From positions 1-64,000 of the forward strand of contig VXQZ01000002.1 of the NCBI GenBank assembly GCA_009838735.1: a DNA stretch of 64,000 nt, written 5' to 3'. How positions within the stretch are numbered: position 1 is the first letter of the stretch; every line of letters begins with the position of its first letter. Of this stretch, positions 1,529-6,760 are shown in pieces. The notes under the pieces were generated by a model. That model was not told the DNA's origin. It made no database searches and saw only the letters and a list, made by a program, of their open reading frames with translations. Both the position numbers and the translations under genes were made by a program. Source of the stretch: Chloroflexota bacterium (GTDB taxonomy: Bacteria; Chloroflexota; Dehalococcoidia; Bin125).

Positions 1529-2157
1529 GTCCGTAGTTTCGCTGCTTCGAGCACGGTGTGTCGCAGTCCTTGATGCACTTTACGGACGTGCTGGTTACCG
1601 AAGATGTCGGCCAGGCGGCGTTGCAGGTAGCGGCGGAGTCCGTTGACGGCCACCACGGCCAGCGAGCCTCCGCCGTTCAGGGCGTCGTGGGCGTCGAGCA
1701 GCAACTGATCAATGGCGTCGTTGCCGGCCTGAGCGGGAAGATTCGAGACGACGAGATCATGGTTGGCGATGGCGTTCGGCAGTTCTCGAATCCCGTCGCT
1801 GAGGTTCACCGTCGCGTTGTCCAGCCGGTTCCGGGTGATGTTCTCTCGTGCGGCCTCGATGGCACGAATGTCGCTATCCACCAGATTGACGCGAGCATCG
1901 GGCCATCGAGCGGCGAGGGTGAGGCCGATTGCTCCGTAGCCGCAGCCGAGATCGAGGACGCGCGGCGGCGAACGGAGGGCCTCCAGTTCGCGCAGCAGGA
2001 GCTCGGTGCCTTCGTCGATCGAACGGGCAGAGAACAGACCGTGTCGCGAGCGCAGCACCAATTGCCGGCCTCCAACATCAACGGCGATTTCCGGATGTAT
2101 CGCCAATCGCTCGCGCAGCTCCTTCAGGTGGTCTCGCTCTTCGGACGACTGGTTCAC
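1525..2157 (-). CDS. Class I SAM-dependent methyltransferase, RsmC-like
   Basis: A 210-aa protein with a Rossmann methyltransferase fold. Motif I is VLDLGCGYGAIGL at residues 67-79 and an acidic residue ends strand beta 2 (NLVDSD). The expected NPPF-type motif IV, which marks N-methylation of bases in this MTS family, reads NLPA at 139-142, so the target cannot be assigned firmly to guanine or adenine. RsmC-type rRNA guanine-N2 methyltransferases are the closest pattern, although this is a single-domain version. It starts with GTG and overlaps both neighbours by 4 nt (GTGA at 2154-2157; ATGA at 1525-1528), which places it firmly inside the operon. Confidence 0.75.
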   Translation of the reverse strand: MNQSSEERDHLKELRERLAIHPEIAVDVGGRQLVLRSRHGLFSARSIDEGTELLLRELEALRSPPRVLDLGCGYGAIGLTLAARWPDARVNLVDSDIRAIEAARENITRNRLDNATVNLSDGIRELPNAIANHDLVVSNLPAQAGNDAIDQLLLDAHDALNGGGSLAVVAVNGLRRYLQRRLADIFGNQHVRKVHQGLRHTVLEAAKLRT

Positions 2158-3245
2158 GGGGCGTCGATTCGTGCCGAGACCGGCCTGAATGTCTCCATGT
2201 GTTCAGGGTCCATGCGCCGGACGATGCCGGGGTAGATGCCGGTGCGTTTGCCGGCGGTCGCTCCGGCGACCGCGATCAGGATGTGGGACAGGTGGGAAAC
2301 CTTGGACATCGGGCGATCAAGATCCTGTGGGCCGATGCCATCGCGTCGCAGGGTTGGCTCGGAGATGCCGCCGCCGACTCGGTCGGTCGCGAGGCGATCA
2401 CGGATCGGAATGGCTGTGAGTTCCATGAGGGCATCGCGGATGTCGTCCTTTGACCAGCCGTCGCGACGGAAGACATCGGCGTGTTCCGGGCTGACGACCA
2501 GCATTGAGGGTCCGATCTGGCCGTTGGGGCTGAAGATGCGCTGAAATCCCATCGCGAGCGAGCCGACGAGCGCTCGGGCCGTGCGGCTGTACTCGTCGAT
2601 GCTGAGTCTTGGGCCTCCGATGACCGGCAACAGGGTGACGACGCTGTCGCTCCGGTCGTAACCGTGTTCCACATGCAGCGGCGGCCAGGGCGAGGCGTCT
2701 TCGTGCTCGGCGAAGGTGAGGGTGAACTTGTGCGCGCCGCCCTGGACGGTTTGATCGATTTCACCCTCTCTGGCTCCGCCGACGTTGCGCAGCACCAGGC
2801 GGAGGGCGCGGCCGATGGTCATGTTGGCCCGGTTGCCTTGCCCGAGGGCGTTGAGTCCCCAGTTCATGCCGATCTGTTCGCGGATCGGTCCATTGACGAT
2901 GATCATCGGCGAGATGCCGTCGGTGCTGGCGATGGTGCCGTGCAAGGGGAAGCGTCCGCCCGCGGCGGCCTCGACGGCGGCGATGACGACCGGGAGATAG
3001 TCGGGCCGGGTTCCGGCTGCGACGGCGTTGATGGCGATCTTCTCGACGGTCGCCGGGGCGTAGTTTGGTGGGATCTTGCCGATTACCTCCGATGGCGAGC
3101 GGCGGGTTCCGGCCAACATTCGCTCGACGCGCCTGCGCGTCGGTGGGACGAGCGGGAGGCCGTCGGTGATTCCCTGGTCGAACATGAACTCGTAGACATC
3201 GTCGTGTTGGGCGACGTCGATGGTTCTTGAGAGCAGCTGGCTCAT
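2154..3245 (-). CDS. UGSC-selenoprotein-associated protein, paralog 1
   Basis: A 363-aa soluble protein of an uncharacterised family, with two relatives in the same operon (3252-4361 and the C-terminal part of 5081-6760). Shared blocks are DDVYEFMFDQGITDG near the N-terminus, LPLVPPTRRRVERML, IGMNWGLNALGQGNRAN in the middle, SPEHADVFRRDGWSKDD, and a hydrophobic ILIAVAGATAGK block near the end. It has no cysteine at all, so any redox chemistry must be supplied by a partner. It starts 6 nt after the stop of the upstream paralog and ends in a GTGA overlap with the methyltransferase gene. The function is unknown. The link to the UGSC selenoprotein is by operon membership and by the thioredoxin fusion of a paralog. 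Confidence 0.85.
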   Translation of the reverse strand: MSQLLSRTIDVAQHDDVYEFMFDQGITDGLPLVPPTRRRVERMLAGTRRSPSEVIGKIPPNYAPATVEKIAINAVAAGTRPDYLPVVIAAVEAAAGGRFPLHGTIASTDGISPMIIVNGPIREQIGMNWGLNALGQGNRANMTIGRALRLVLRNVGGAREGEIDQTVQGGAHKFTLTFAEHEDASPWPPLHVEHGYDRSDSVVTLLPVIGGPRLSIDEYSRTARALVGSLAMGFQRIFSPNGQIGPSMLVVSPEHADVFRRDGWSKDDIRDALMELTAIPIRDRLATDRVGGGISEPTLRRDGIGPQDLDRPMSKVSHLSHILIAVAGATAGKRTGIYPGIVRRMDPEHMETFRPVSARIDAP

Positions 3246-3251
3246 GAAGGA

Positions 3252-4361
3252 TCAGGAGCGGATGCGCGCCGAAGGGGGCACGAAGGTTGGCGGCGGCGCA
3301 GCGGGGTTGCCGTCGCCGAAGATGCCCTGGTAGATGCTGGTCCACTTGCCGGCGTGGCTGCCGGCGACGGTAATCGCGATGAAGGATGGATCGGCGACCT
3401 TGGAGAGCGGCATGTCGAGGTCTTCTTCGGTCAGTCCGTGCTTCTCGGGCAGGTACTCGTTGATGCCGCCGCCCATCTCTGGCGTGGCCAGGCGATCGCG
3501 CAGCGGCAGGGATGTGAATTCCATGATCGCTTCGCGGAAGTTGTCTTTGGTCCAGCCGCTGGCGCGGTAGACATCGGCGTGTTCGGGGCTGACTACGAAC
3601 ATGGACGGTGTGACCTGGCCTCGGGGCTTGAGCACCTGCTGGAAGGCCATGGCGATCGAGCCGGTCAGTGAGCGCGCATTGCGGCTGTACTGATCGATGC
3701 AGACTCGGGGGCCGCCGGTGATTGGAATGAGCGAGACGACGCTGTCGTCGGGGTCGTAGCCGTGCTCGACGTGGTACGGCTCCCAGGGGGAGTAGTCCTC
3801 GTCCTCGGCGTAACTCAAGGTCCACTTGTGTCCGCCGCCCTGGATGGCCTGCTCGATCTCTCCGGGCACGGCGCCGCCAATGTTGCGCAGCATCAGGCGC
3901 AAGGCTCGGCCTAGGGTGGAGTTGGCTCGGTTGCCCTGTCCGAGGGCGTTGAGGCCCCAGTTCATGCCGATGTCCTTGCGCACCGGTCCGTTGACGAGCA
4001 TCATCGGCGCGAGTCCGGCCGTGGTTGCTATGGAGCCGTGAAGCGGGAATCGCCCGCCGGCCGCGGCCTCTACAGAAGCGAGCACGGTGGGGAAGTAGTC
4101 CGGCTTGCAGCCGGCCATGACGGCGTTGATGGCGGCCTTTTCGACCGTCATCGGGGCCATGTTCGGGGGGAGTGTTGCGACGATCTTCTGTGGATCGCTC
4201 CAATGCTCCGGCGAGCGGGCGAGCATCCGGTCGACTCGCTCACGCGTGGGAGGGATGACCGGGAGGCCGTCGGTGATGCCCTGCGAGAACATGAACTCGT
4301 AGACATCGTCGTGGTCGGCGATTTCGATGATTCTTGAGTAGAAGTCGGAGTCGCCGGACAC
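3252..4361 (-). CDS. UGSC-selenoprotein-associated protein, paralog 2
   Basis: A 369-aa protein closely related to the gene just downstream (2154-3245), sharing the DDVYEFMFSQGITDG, LPVIPPTRERVDRML, IGMNWGLNALGQGNRAN and SPEHADVYRASGWTKD blocks. It carries two cysteines (in MAGCKPDYFP and GPRVCIDQYS) that paralog 1 lacks. The start is GTG with an AAGG about 10 nt upstream. A 128-nt gap holding two strong hairpins separates it from the selenoprotein gene; it is otherwise in line with the operon. No enzymatic motif is recognised. The GRALRLMLRNIGG-type conserved segments suggest an enzyme rather than a structural protein, but this is a guess. Confidence 0.85.
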   Translation of the reverse strand: MSGDSDFYSRIIEIADHDDVYEFMFSQGITDGLPVIPPTRERVDRMLARSPEHWSDPQKIVATLPPNMAPMTVEKAAINAVMAGCKPDYFPTVLASVEAAAGGRFPLHGSIATTAGLAPMMLVNGPVRKDIGMNWGLNALGQGNRANSTLGRALRLMLRNIGGAVPGEIEQAIQGGGHKWTLSYAEDEDYSPWEPYHVEHGYDPDDSVVSLIPITGGPRVCIDQYSRNARSLTGSIAMAFQQVLKPRGQVTPSMFVVSPEHADVYRASGWTKDNFREAIMEFTSLPLRDRLATPEMGGGINEYLPEKHGLTEEDLDMPLSKVADPSFIAITVAGSHAGKWTSIYQGIFGDGNPAAPPPTFVPPSARIRS

Positions 4362-4400
4362 TGAGATGCCTTATCGGATGGGGGAGGGCCCTCACCCTAG

Positions 4401-4466
4401 CCCTCTCCCACAGGGAGAGGGGATTGGTAAGGCCACCCTCGGCCCCCTCTCCCAGAGGGAGAGGGG
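4401..4466. repeat. Two CCCTCTCCC/GGGAGAGGG hairpin repeats
   Basis: Two perfect inverted repeats lie in direct tandem: a 9-bp stem at 4401-4421 (loop ACA) and a 10-bp stem at 4444-4466 (loop AGA). Repeats of this CCCTCTCCC type are widespread in bacterial intergenic regions. They sit between the selenoprotein stop and the next gene of the same operon, where they could lower downstream transcript levels or protect the 3' end of the upstream message. Confidence 0.75.
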
Positions 4467-4489
4467 ATCAGAACGGGAATGTCGAGGGA

Positions 4490-5020
4490 CTAATCGACCG
4501 GCGCCATGAGGGTGTCGAGGATTTCGTCGACGAAGCGCTCGGCGTGTTCGTGCATCTCGGCGTCCGTGCGGTCCTGCATCGGATGCGGGATGAAGACGCG
4601 GCGGACCTCTTCGAGTCCGAGGCGTTCGGCCTGGTGGCTGGCGGCCTTGATGAACTCAGAGGTGGCGACGAAGACGCTGGGCTTGCCCTGCAGTTCGAAG
4701 AAGACGGTGTCGTGCACACTGCACGTCGTGCAGGATCCTCAATCAGCGAGCGCTTCGATGACGAAGTCGCACTCCTCCAGGATCGCATCTTTGATCGGTT
4801 GCGGGGCCGGCTTGGCGACGGTCGGCTTCATGAAGCGCTTGGTCTCGATGCCGGGCGCGCGCTCGTGTAGGAGCTGCTCGAGCCGGTCGAGGAAGACGTC
4901 GCCGCGGGGCTTGGAGATGTCGAGCAGGGCGATGGTCCCATGCAGCGCCTCGGGGCGCGGCGTGAGCTGCCGCTTGATCGGTACTCGTTCGTCGGTGGGG
5001 TCAAGGATCTGGGTAACCAT
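4490..5020 (-). CDS. UGSC family selenoprotein (in-frame TGA read as Sec)
   Basis: Read with one in-frame TGA as selenocysteine, this is a 176-aa protein. The first 93 residues end in EALAD; the TGA (4739-4741) supplies residue 94; the frame then continues GSCTTCSVHDTVFFE to a TAG stop at 4490. This reproduces the diagnostic U-G-S-C motif of the UGSC (seleno)protein family, with C97 and C100 as further redox candidates (U94-G-S-C97-T-T-C100). Both halves match in composition and the downstream half has no convincing start or ribosome site of its own, so a pseudogene or two-gene reading is less likely. The start ATG follows a GGAGAGG ribosome site. A SECIS-like hairpin begins about 13 nt after the TGA. 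A thioredoxin-fused gene ends 60 nt upstream. The biochemical role of the family is not established; thiol/selenol redox chemistry is inferred. Machinery for Sec is not in the window. Confidence 0.87.
4711..4733 (-). promoter_or_regulatory. Candidate bacterial SECIS element after the UGA
   Basis: Two overlapping perfect 6-bp hairpins follow the TGA at 4739-4741. The one better fitting the known bacterial SECIS rules is CGTGCA-GTG-TGCACG (4711-4725): its apical loop opens with G and begins 20 nt after the TGA. The competing hairpin CTGCAC-GAC-GTGCAG (4719-4733) has its loop at nt 12 after the TGA, closer than usual. Bacterial SECIS elements bind SelB within the coding region, as here. Confidence 0.6.
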
Positions 5021-5080
5021 GGGACCTCTCCATCAACGCGCCGTCTGCAGGGTTATGGCGCGCAATGTGTGTTTCTCAGT

Positions 5081-6760
5081 CTAGCCGCGCCTGATGCGCG
5101 GTTCGAACGCACCGAGGTCTTTGCCGCCGGAGCGGCGTTTGTCCATGCCGGCGCCGCTTCTCCCGCGAATCTCGAGAGCGCCATCGGTTCCGATCCTGGC
5201 GCTGGTCGGGGTGGAGTAGACCCCGGCGGCCCAGCCGCCGAGGATGGTCGAGAACTTGGCGGCGGAGGATCCGGCGACGACGAGGATGATGTTCGACTTG
5301 TCCTGGAACTTGGGCACGGGGTAATCGAGCGCCTGCTCGCCGCCGAAGCGCTCGACGACGCTTGGGGGCAATCCGGCGCCTGCGTCATCCGAGCGAAGCC
5401 GGTGCTTCAGTGGGATCGCCGTCTCCTCCATGATGCATTCGCGCACATCGTCCTTGGACCAGCCGGACCGTCCGAAGATGCCGGCGTGGTCGGGCGAGAG
5501 GACGACCAACGTGTCGACCATCGGCGACTTCGGGTCCTGCATGCAGCTCATCGACATCGCGAGCGTGCCGGCCATGCCTCGACCGTCGCGCGAGCGTTCG
5601 TCGGCGATCGTGGCCGGTCCGCCGGACATCGCCATCAGCGTGGCGACATCGTCGGTTGGCTCGAAGCCATACTCGACTGCGAGTGAGTCCCAGGGGCTGG
5701 CGTCCTCGTTCTCGGCGAAGTTCATGGTGAGCCTGTGGGGACCGCCCTGAGTAGCACGGTCGGTGCCGCCGGGGACGCTGCCGCCGACGTTGCGGGCGCA
5801 GAGGCGCAGGGCTCGGCCGATCGCCGCGTTGGCGCGGTTGCCGGAGCCGAGCGCTCCGTGCAGGTAGTTCATGCCGATTCGGTCGCGGATCGGCCCGTTG
5901 AAGATGCCGACCGGCGTGGCGCCCATCGTCGTGGCCAGGACGCCGTGGATGTTGAAGCTTTCGGTGCAGGCGGTCTCGACCAGCGCAATAATCGCTGGCA
6001 GATACTCAGGCCTGGCTCCCGCCATGACGGCATTGATTGCGACCTTCTCGACCGTGATCGGCGCGAGGTTGGGCGGAACGATGGCCACTTCATCCTGCGG
6101 GTCGCGGGTGGTGCCCTGGAGCATCTTCCAGACGCGCTCGCGGGTCGGCGGCACGACCGGGAAGCCGTCGGTGTAGCCCTGGTCGTACATGAACTCGTGA
6201 ATGTCGTCGCTCGATGCGAGGTCAACGAGCCGCGAGAGCAGATCACCGCTCTTCAGCGCCTGCAATCGTTCGTAGACGCCTGGTTCATAGTTGCGCGCGC
6301 CGCAGCCGGGTCGCTGTTCTGGCAGCGACTCCCAATCGATCGAGGTCTCGACTCCCGGGCGGCCGGCAAGCGTCATTGACTCACTGGCGATTTCACGCCA
6401 TTCGTGCTTATCGAAGCCGAAGGTCTGCAATGTGCAGTTCTGCTCTTCGTCGTAGAGGAAAAGCGTCGGCACGGTGTCGATGTCGGTCTCGTAGGAGAGG
6501 TCGAGCGCGTCGTCGTCGAGCAGCGGCATCGTCAGATCGTGACGATCCTTGAGTACGTCTATGTCGTCGCGCTTCTGTACCGCGACCCACACATCCAGTC
6601 CCTGATCGGTGTCTCGATGAACGGCCTCGAGCAACGGCAGGGTCAGGTTGCAGGTGTCGCAGTCTTCCTTGACCAGGGCCAGCAGAACCGGCCCATCGGG
6701 GGGAAATTGCTTCTCCTGGCCTTCGGCGTCAAGCAGCGAGAATTTGGTCGGTGGGTGCAT
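5081..6760 (-). CDS. Thioredoxin-like domain fused to UGSC-associated domain
   Basis: A 559-aa, two-domain protein. Residues 1 to about 135 look like a thioredoxin fold: a redox pair C34-D-T-C37 at the start of a helix and a TVP segment at 96-98 where thioredoxins carry the cis-proline. A linker with P151-G-C-G follows. From about residue 180 it matches the two paralogs downstream (DDIHEFMYDQGYTDG, FPVVPPTRERVWKML, IGMNYLHGALGSGNRAN, SPDHAGIFGRSGWSKDD). The fusion ties this unknown family directly to disulfide or selenyl-sulfide exchange, and the very next gene encodes the UGSC selenoprotein. It is the first gene of the operon. There is no clear ribosome site; a TAGACT hexamer 6 nt before the ATG suggests a leaderless mRNA. 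Which reaction it performs is unknown. Confidence 0.87.
   Translation of the reverse strand: MHPPTKFSLLDAEGQEKQFPPDGPVLLALVKEDCDTCNLTLPLLEAVHRDTDQGLDVWVAVQKRDDIDVLKDRHDLTMPLLDDDALDLSYETDIDTVPTLFLYDEEQNCTLQTFGFDKHEWREIASESMTLAGRPGVETSIDWESLPEQRPGCGARNYEPGVYERLQALKSGDLLSRLVDLASSDDIHEFMYDQGYTDGFPVVPPTRERVWKMLQGTTRDPQDEVAIVPPNLAPITVEKVAINAVMAGARPEYLPAIIALVETACTESFNIHGVLATTMGATPVGIFNGPIRDRIGMNYLHGALGSGNRANAAIGRALRLCARNVGGSVPGGTDRATQGGPHRLTMNFAENEDASPWDSLAVEYGFEPTDDVATLMAMSGGPATIADERSRDGRGMAGTLAMSMSCMQDPKSPMVDTLVVLSPDHAGIFGRSGWSKDDVRECIMEETAIPLKHRLRSDDAGAGLPPSVVERFGGEQALDYPVPKFQDKSNIILVVAGSSAAKFSTILGGWAAGVYSTPTSARIGTDGALEIRGRSGAGMDKRRSGGKDLGAFEPRIRRG

Follow-up and report, generated by a model that had tools for sequence, protein, structure and literature searches.

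Among the described systems closest to the one considered here are the reductases of glycine and D-proline. During glycine reduction, electrons move from reduced nicotinamide adenine dinucleotide phosphate (NADPH) to thioredoxin reductase, thioredoxin, and GrdA/GrdB (PMC3091704). In D-proline reductase, PrdA holds the substrate, which is attacked by the selenocysteine (Sec) of PrdB; a PrdB cysteine (Cys) then resolves the selenoether to a selenide-sulfide (PMC3091704). A GrdB/GrdE-like pair has also been proposed to cleave the carbon-fluorine bond of fluoroacetate (PMC10838667). UGSC ranks among the commonest selenoprotein families of aquatic metagenomes, with 255 sequences in the Global Ocean Sampling (GOS) study (PMC2398784), and the family is so far without an assigned function. 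Here, we analyze a UGSC gene of a Chloroflexota bacterium, located at positions 4490 to 5020 (minus strand) of a 64,000-nucleotide stretch of contig VXQZ01000002.1, hereafter the window. We find that all the genomic evidence points to decoding of its in-frame TGA as Sec, and that the gene lies among members of a second, partner family with which its product may form a reductase.

An in-frame TGA in a UGSC family gene

The gene reads from an ATG at 5020 to a TAG ending at 4490, and its sole interruption is the TGA at 4741–4739. The original prediction had described just such a frame and expected gene callers to return two fragments; a standard list of open reading frames (ORFs) indeed splits the gene into pieces of 93 and 75 amino acids (aa). 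Both UGSC profiles match the read-through protein above their curated cut-offs and span the TGA, i.e. PF24696 over residues 4–172 (E = 4.4e-44; 151.1 bits, cut-off 25) and NF041046 over residues 29–171 (E = 3e-45; 153.8 bits, cut-off 125), and the U/C-G-S-C motif is present as Sec94-G95-S96-C97. Compared with a same-genus orthologue (L056), the ratio of nonsynonymous to synonymous substitution rates is about 0.17 3' of the TGA and 0.08 5' of it, and third codon positions hold most of the changes on both sides. The claims that this is a UGSC protein and that coding character continues beyond the TGA are thus borne out, and the stretch is one gene of a known family rather than a chance frame. 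The features of the gene itself are as follows:

4490..5020, minus strand: UGSC family selenoprotein gene, 176 aa, with Sec94-G-S-C97 (from the frame and the PF24696 and NF041046 matches)
4739..4741, minus strand: Sec codon (TGA), kept in same-genus orthologues and replaced by a Cys codon in other loci
5025..5031, minus strand: ribosome-binding-site-like GGAGAGG ahead of the UGSC ATG (from the sequence)

A single TGA is present in nearly all UGSC matches across 301 genomes of the phylum, and in each of the four UGSC genes of the bacterium's own genome. The TGA is found at codon 94 in 14/14 same-genus orthologues (the window included) and in six farther relatives, and in the closely examined loci it is kept in 45 of 46 UGSC domains. 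A scan for Cys forms also recovers Cys at the Sec position in 16 loci of other lineages, with hosts that include Embleya, Streptomyces, Yinghuangia, Conexibacter, Nonomuraea, Chelatococcus, a Myxococcales, and a Binatia bacterium. A position at which some family members carry Sec and others Cys is standard evidence for Sec. The assembly that holds the window (96.6% complete) encodes selA, selB, and selD along with a tRNA-Sec that scores 68.2 bits, above the gathering score, and that ARAGORN also reports. As such, the Sec reading put forward in the original prediction stands: all four components of the machinery that it proposed to look for are found, and near relatives read through the TGA instead of stopping at it.

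Two side observations concern these genes. The only exception among the 46 domains (L066:10048-10563) has Thr in place of Sec and Gly in place of C97, is fused to the partner, and adjoins a second UGSC copy that keeps Sec; it is possibly a non-catalytic paralogue. In addition, selD of the bacterium's own genome (G000:C46:120633-121574, L019) carries an in-frame TGA, which suggests that selenophosphate synthetase is probably a selenoprotein here as well.

Invariant or near-invariant residues of the family include U94, G95, C97, E109, G112, P114, F123, G135, and P147. A selenyl-sulfide relay through C97 and C100 had been suggested for this protein. Since C97 (U+3) is kept in 36/37 UGSC sequences, a selenenyl-sulfide between it and Sec94 is plausible, whereas position 100 (U+6) is C in 10/37 and W in 13/37, and any role of C100 is therefore not general. 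The window gene otherwise resembles its family in its full-length match, U-G-S-C motif, Sec at the U position, and PHP motif; it represents a subfamily in which U+6 is a second Cys and the partner carries a fused thioredoxin-like domain.

Downstream of the TGA, 2 features may relate to recoding:

4709..4732, minus strand: block of eight codons (97–104), the putative recoding signal region, free of synonymous change among the 14 genus orthologues
4711..4725, minus strand: candidate bacterial Sec insertion sequence (bSECIS) hairpin CGUGC-AGUGU-GCACG, loop G23-U24 closed by A22-U26 (from geometry and conservation)

Synonymous diversity in codons 97–104 is 0.0, against a gene mean of 0.22 (14 genus orthologues; permutation P = 0.0006), and there is nearly no synonymous change in a wider set of 20 sequences that reaches down to about 56% protein identity. 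In the wider set, no other window of the gene has so low a value, and in the genus set the block shares the minimum with windows that overlap it. The hairpin has a 5 bp stem and a 5 nt loop (AGUGU) starting 18 nt after the UGA. The consensus bSECIS has a 4–16 bp stem, a 3–9 nt loop with G in the first two loop positions, a distance of 16–37 nt from the UGA, and an energy of ≤ −7.5 kcal/mol (PMC13188914). The candidate fits this geometry, and the energy of the hairpin alone is borderline (−7.0 kcal/mol); a mutually exclusive hairpin at 4719–4733 has a similar energy. Its pairs are retained in 20/20 orthologues and, because they never vary, no covariation can be claimed.

Folding energy after the TGA is not unusual for the window alone (z = 0.27; second test, z = 0.07). 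Compared with synonymous re-samplings, the stretch after the TGA is more stably folded in 46 Sec loci (mean z = −0.70) but not in 17 Cys loci (mean z = +0.22; Mann–Whitney P = 0.0013, an optimistic value given that the sequences are related). As the window alone is not significant, support for a Sec insertion sequence comes from this comparison between sets and from the synonymous conservation. A loose count of bSECIS-like hairpins does not separate Sec from Cys loci, and was not used.

Predicted fold and distant link to selenoprotein B

The AlphaFold2 model of UGSC has a mean predicted local distance difference test (pLDDT) score of 95.3 and a strand-helix order of b-a-b-a-b-a-b-a-b-a, with Sec94 (modeled as Cys) between strand 86–92 and helix 95–110. 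Its best Foldseek neighbors in the PDB include flavin mononucleotide reductases, flavodiiron proteins, and flavodoxins (best E = 8e-5; template modeling [TM] score about 0.45–0.5). The predicted fold is thus five-stranded, doubly wound, and flavodoxin-like, and it lacks the arrangement that defines a thioredoxin fold. UGSC has been called likely thioredoxin-like (PMC2398784) and placed among proteins with a thioredoxin-like fold (PMC13188914), labels that the model argues against.

Profile comparison links UGSC to a different family. Specifically, hhalign aligns 37 UGSC sequences with 17 GRDB C-terminal domains at 96.2% (E = 2e-9), pairing UGSC with U/C-x-x-C as well as an E-x-x-G-I-P stretch and the PHP motif, while the controls against GRDB reach 0.7% (reversed UGSC alignment) and 0.2% (partner alignment). 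A UGSC profile built without GRDB sequences also finds a full-length GrdB (L092; E = 7e-6). These links suggest that UGSC is distantly homologous to the Sec domain at the C-terminus of selenoprotein B of glycine reductase. With GrdB (PF07355), it shares a UxxC that follows a D-x-V-I/L-type strand in the C-terminal half, then E-x-x-G-I-P and PHP, but it lacks the N-terminal half of GrdB. No sequence relative of GrdB was found in the PDB copy searched.

The bacterium's own genome also contains five short proteins that match only the C-terminal half of GRDB (L096 = G000:C19:120867-121256; the others on G000 C10, C17, and C23), and L096, the one of these that was read, has a TGA at a U-P-F-C motif, so that further stand-alone selenoprotein-B-like proteins are probably present. 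GrdE is probably absent, as the genome has 0 matches to PF09338 (the GrdE/PrdA-type subunit).

The partner family and the thioredoxin link

Three genes around the UGSC gene are members of a single family with a length of about 320 residues, and one of them is extended by a thioredoxin-like part:

5081..6760, minus strand: partner protein of 559 aa whose N-terminal domain is thioredoxin-like (partner domain E = 1e-124)
3252..4361, minus strand: partner family protein, 369 aa, without Pfam or NCBIfam match (partner family match)
2154..3245, minus strand: another partner paralogue farther downstream, 363 aa, sharing 63% identity with the 3252..4361 protein (partner family match)
6311..6760, minus strand: thioredoxin-like part of the 5081–6760 protein, with C34-D-T-C37 (nt 6650–6661) and a TVPT cis-Pro-type motif (weak AhpC-TSA match)

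No significant Pfam or NCBIfam match was obtained for the 38 partner members scanned. A partner gene lies within about 0.75 kb of 45/46 UGSC domains, on the same strand and in either order, and it is beside the UGSC domain in all 16 Cys loci too; the 2 are fused in at least nine proteins. UGSC occurs in 32 genomes, the partner in 32, and both in 31 of the 33 that have either (n = 301; Fisher P = 6e-40, with kinship ignored). The GOS study reported a UGSC/Unknown_1 fusion (PMC2398784), which is alike in joining UGSC to an uncharacterized domain.

The predicted partner model has a pLDDT of 88.8. Two candidate relationships were set aside, i.e. one with cyclic amide hydrolases or class I fumarases, for which matches are weak and of low TM score, and one with GrdE/PrdA, which was rejected (hhalign against GrdE-type sequences, 0.1%; no link in a Pfam scan). 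The partner paralogues at 2154–4361 stand in tandem, whereas a single copy lies downstream in L056 of the same genus, a difference that suggests a recent duplication or loss. In the spacer that separates UGSC from the next partner gene, positions 4380–4470 hold two copies of an inverted-repeat-like CCCTCTCCCTNTGGGAGAGGG unit that resembles a dispersed intergenic repeat.

In the window, L056, L075, L076, and L090, the partner carries a fused thioredoxin-like domain with CxxC, and L085 has CPTS instead. Thioredoxin reductase genes (CxxCD) adjoin UGSC or lie a few genes away in L068, L077, L080, L124, L125, and L126, and a thioredoxin gene is nearby in L125 and L127; for example, the gene order in L125 is thioredoxin reductase-thioredoxin-partner-UGSC. 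The other recurrent neighbors are catabolic (acyl-coenzyme A [CoA] dehydrogenase, CoA-transferase III, amidohydrolase, and enolase superfamily), along with IclR regulators. A small protein of 82–102 aa with a conserved A-C-x-x-C-L-V-P motif is also present near UGSC in eight loci (L067:5735-5989, L086:6522-6770, L115:9784-10092, L117:3219-3500, L119:6555-6836, L122:6561-6827, L123:5870-6133, and L126:7465-7752), one of which encodes a weakly NifU-like form (E = 4.7e-4, below the cut-off).

A putative two-subunit reductase and its alternatives

We regard it as moderately probable that UGSC and its partner form a thioredoxin-fed, Sec-dependent two-subunit reductase resembling glycine and D-proline reductases. 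UGSC would be the small catalytic subunit that bears the selenol, and the partner of about 320 residues would bind and activate an organic substrate. Sec94, located at the start of the helix that follows the third strand of the flavodoxin-like domain, would attack this substrate and cleave a carbon-heteroatom bond (or reduce the substrate), after which C97 would free the product through a selenenyl-sulfide. Thioredoxin would then reduce the selenenyl-sulfide with electrons passed from NADPH through thioredoxin reductase, and in the window this role probably falls to the N-terminal domain of the 5081–6760 protein. The substrate is probably a catabolic intermediate, with paralogues specialized for different compounds. 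What the genomes show is the Sec gene and its association with the partner and with thioredoxin; we infer complex formation, the selenenyl-sulfide with C97, and carbon-heteroatom cleavage and, from context, reductive C-N or C-X cleavage driven by thioredoxin-derived electrons.

The likeness to known systems is partial. UGSC shares with GrdB the link to thioredoxin and thioredoxin reductase, a larger partner subunit, and, putatively, substrate-specific paralogues, but its partner is unrelated in sequence. With PrdA/PrdB, it would share a small UxxC selenoprotein, a larger substrate-binding subunit, and selenide-sulfide regeneration as described for that pair (PMC3091704). The UGSC partner differs in that neither the Gly_reductase profile nor GrdE-type sequences detectably resemble it, and the scanned UGSC neighbors included no PrdC-type protein.

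Several results weigh against the proposed reductase. The homology between UGSC and GRDB is profile-based and confined to some 71 columns surrounding the active site; PF07355 is not matched by any of the 37 UGSC sequences, even at E ≤ 1. The partner has no detectable relation to GrdE/PrdA, its model has no PDB fold match at E ≤ 0.001, and its alignment has neither an invariant Cys nor an obvious pyruvoyl site. The AhpC-TSA match of the thioredoxin-like part in the window (E = 0.0018) is below the Pfam cut-off, and thioredoxin reductase or thioredoxin genes are near UGSC in a minority of loci only.

Alternatively, UGSC could be a general thiol or peroxide reductase, i.e. an antioxidant selenoprotein like those of the thioredoxin fold, which we consider unlikely. 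It has been listed among thioredoxin-like proteins (PMC2398784, PMC13188914), the title of a paper cited by PMC3091704 ascribes peroxidase activity to GrdB, and neighboring thioredoxin and thioredoxin reductase genes would suit a thioredoxin-reduced peroxidase just as well. The predicted fold, however, is doubly wound with flavodoxin-like neighbors, and a large, near-obligate partner in catabolic contexts with multiple paralogues would be unusual for an antioxidant. It is rather improbable that UGSC and its partner act on something other than an organic compound, such as metals, metalloids, or sulfur species, or that they modify a further protein. A partner without assignable fold or chemistry leaves room for this, as does the small CxxC NifU-like protein of eight loci, but the neighboring genes are mostly of the CoA, dehydrogenase, hydrolase, and IclR types.

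By contrast, a broken gene, or a UGA that acts as a true stop and yields two short proteins, is extremely improbable. The divided ORF calls and the ordinary folding energy downstream of the TGA in the window would agree with it, but it is in practice refuted by the TGA of every orthologue, the Cys forms elsewhere, purifying selection after the TGA, the Sec machinery, and the conserved synonymous block.

The window gene itself is a typical representative of a known family, and what is new is the functional hypothesis. Taken together, the kinship with selenoprotein B, the thioredoxin genes, and the near-obligate partner give UGSC a testable enzyme hypothesis, and they speak against the thioredoxin-like label given to it in reviews. 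A partner family without Pfam or NCBIfam model gains a probable role. We place at about even chances that the 2 proteins represent an undescribed class of selenium-dependent reductase, fed by thioredoxin and equipped with a new substrate-binding subunit, in which kinship with selenoprotein B is limited to the Sec domain. Such a class would serve catabolism outside amino-acid fermentation, both in this phylum and in Actinomycetota, Binatia, Myxococcales, and Alphaproteobacteria.
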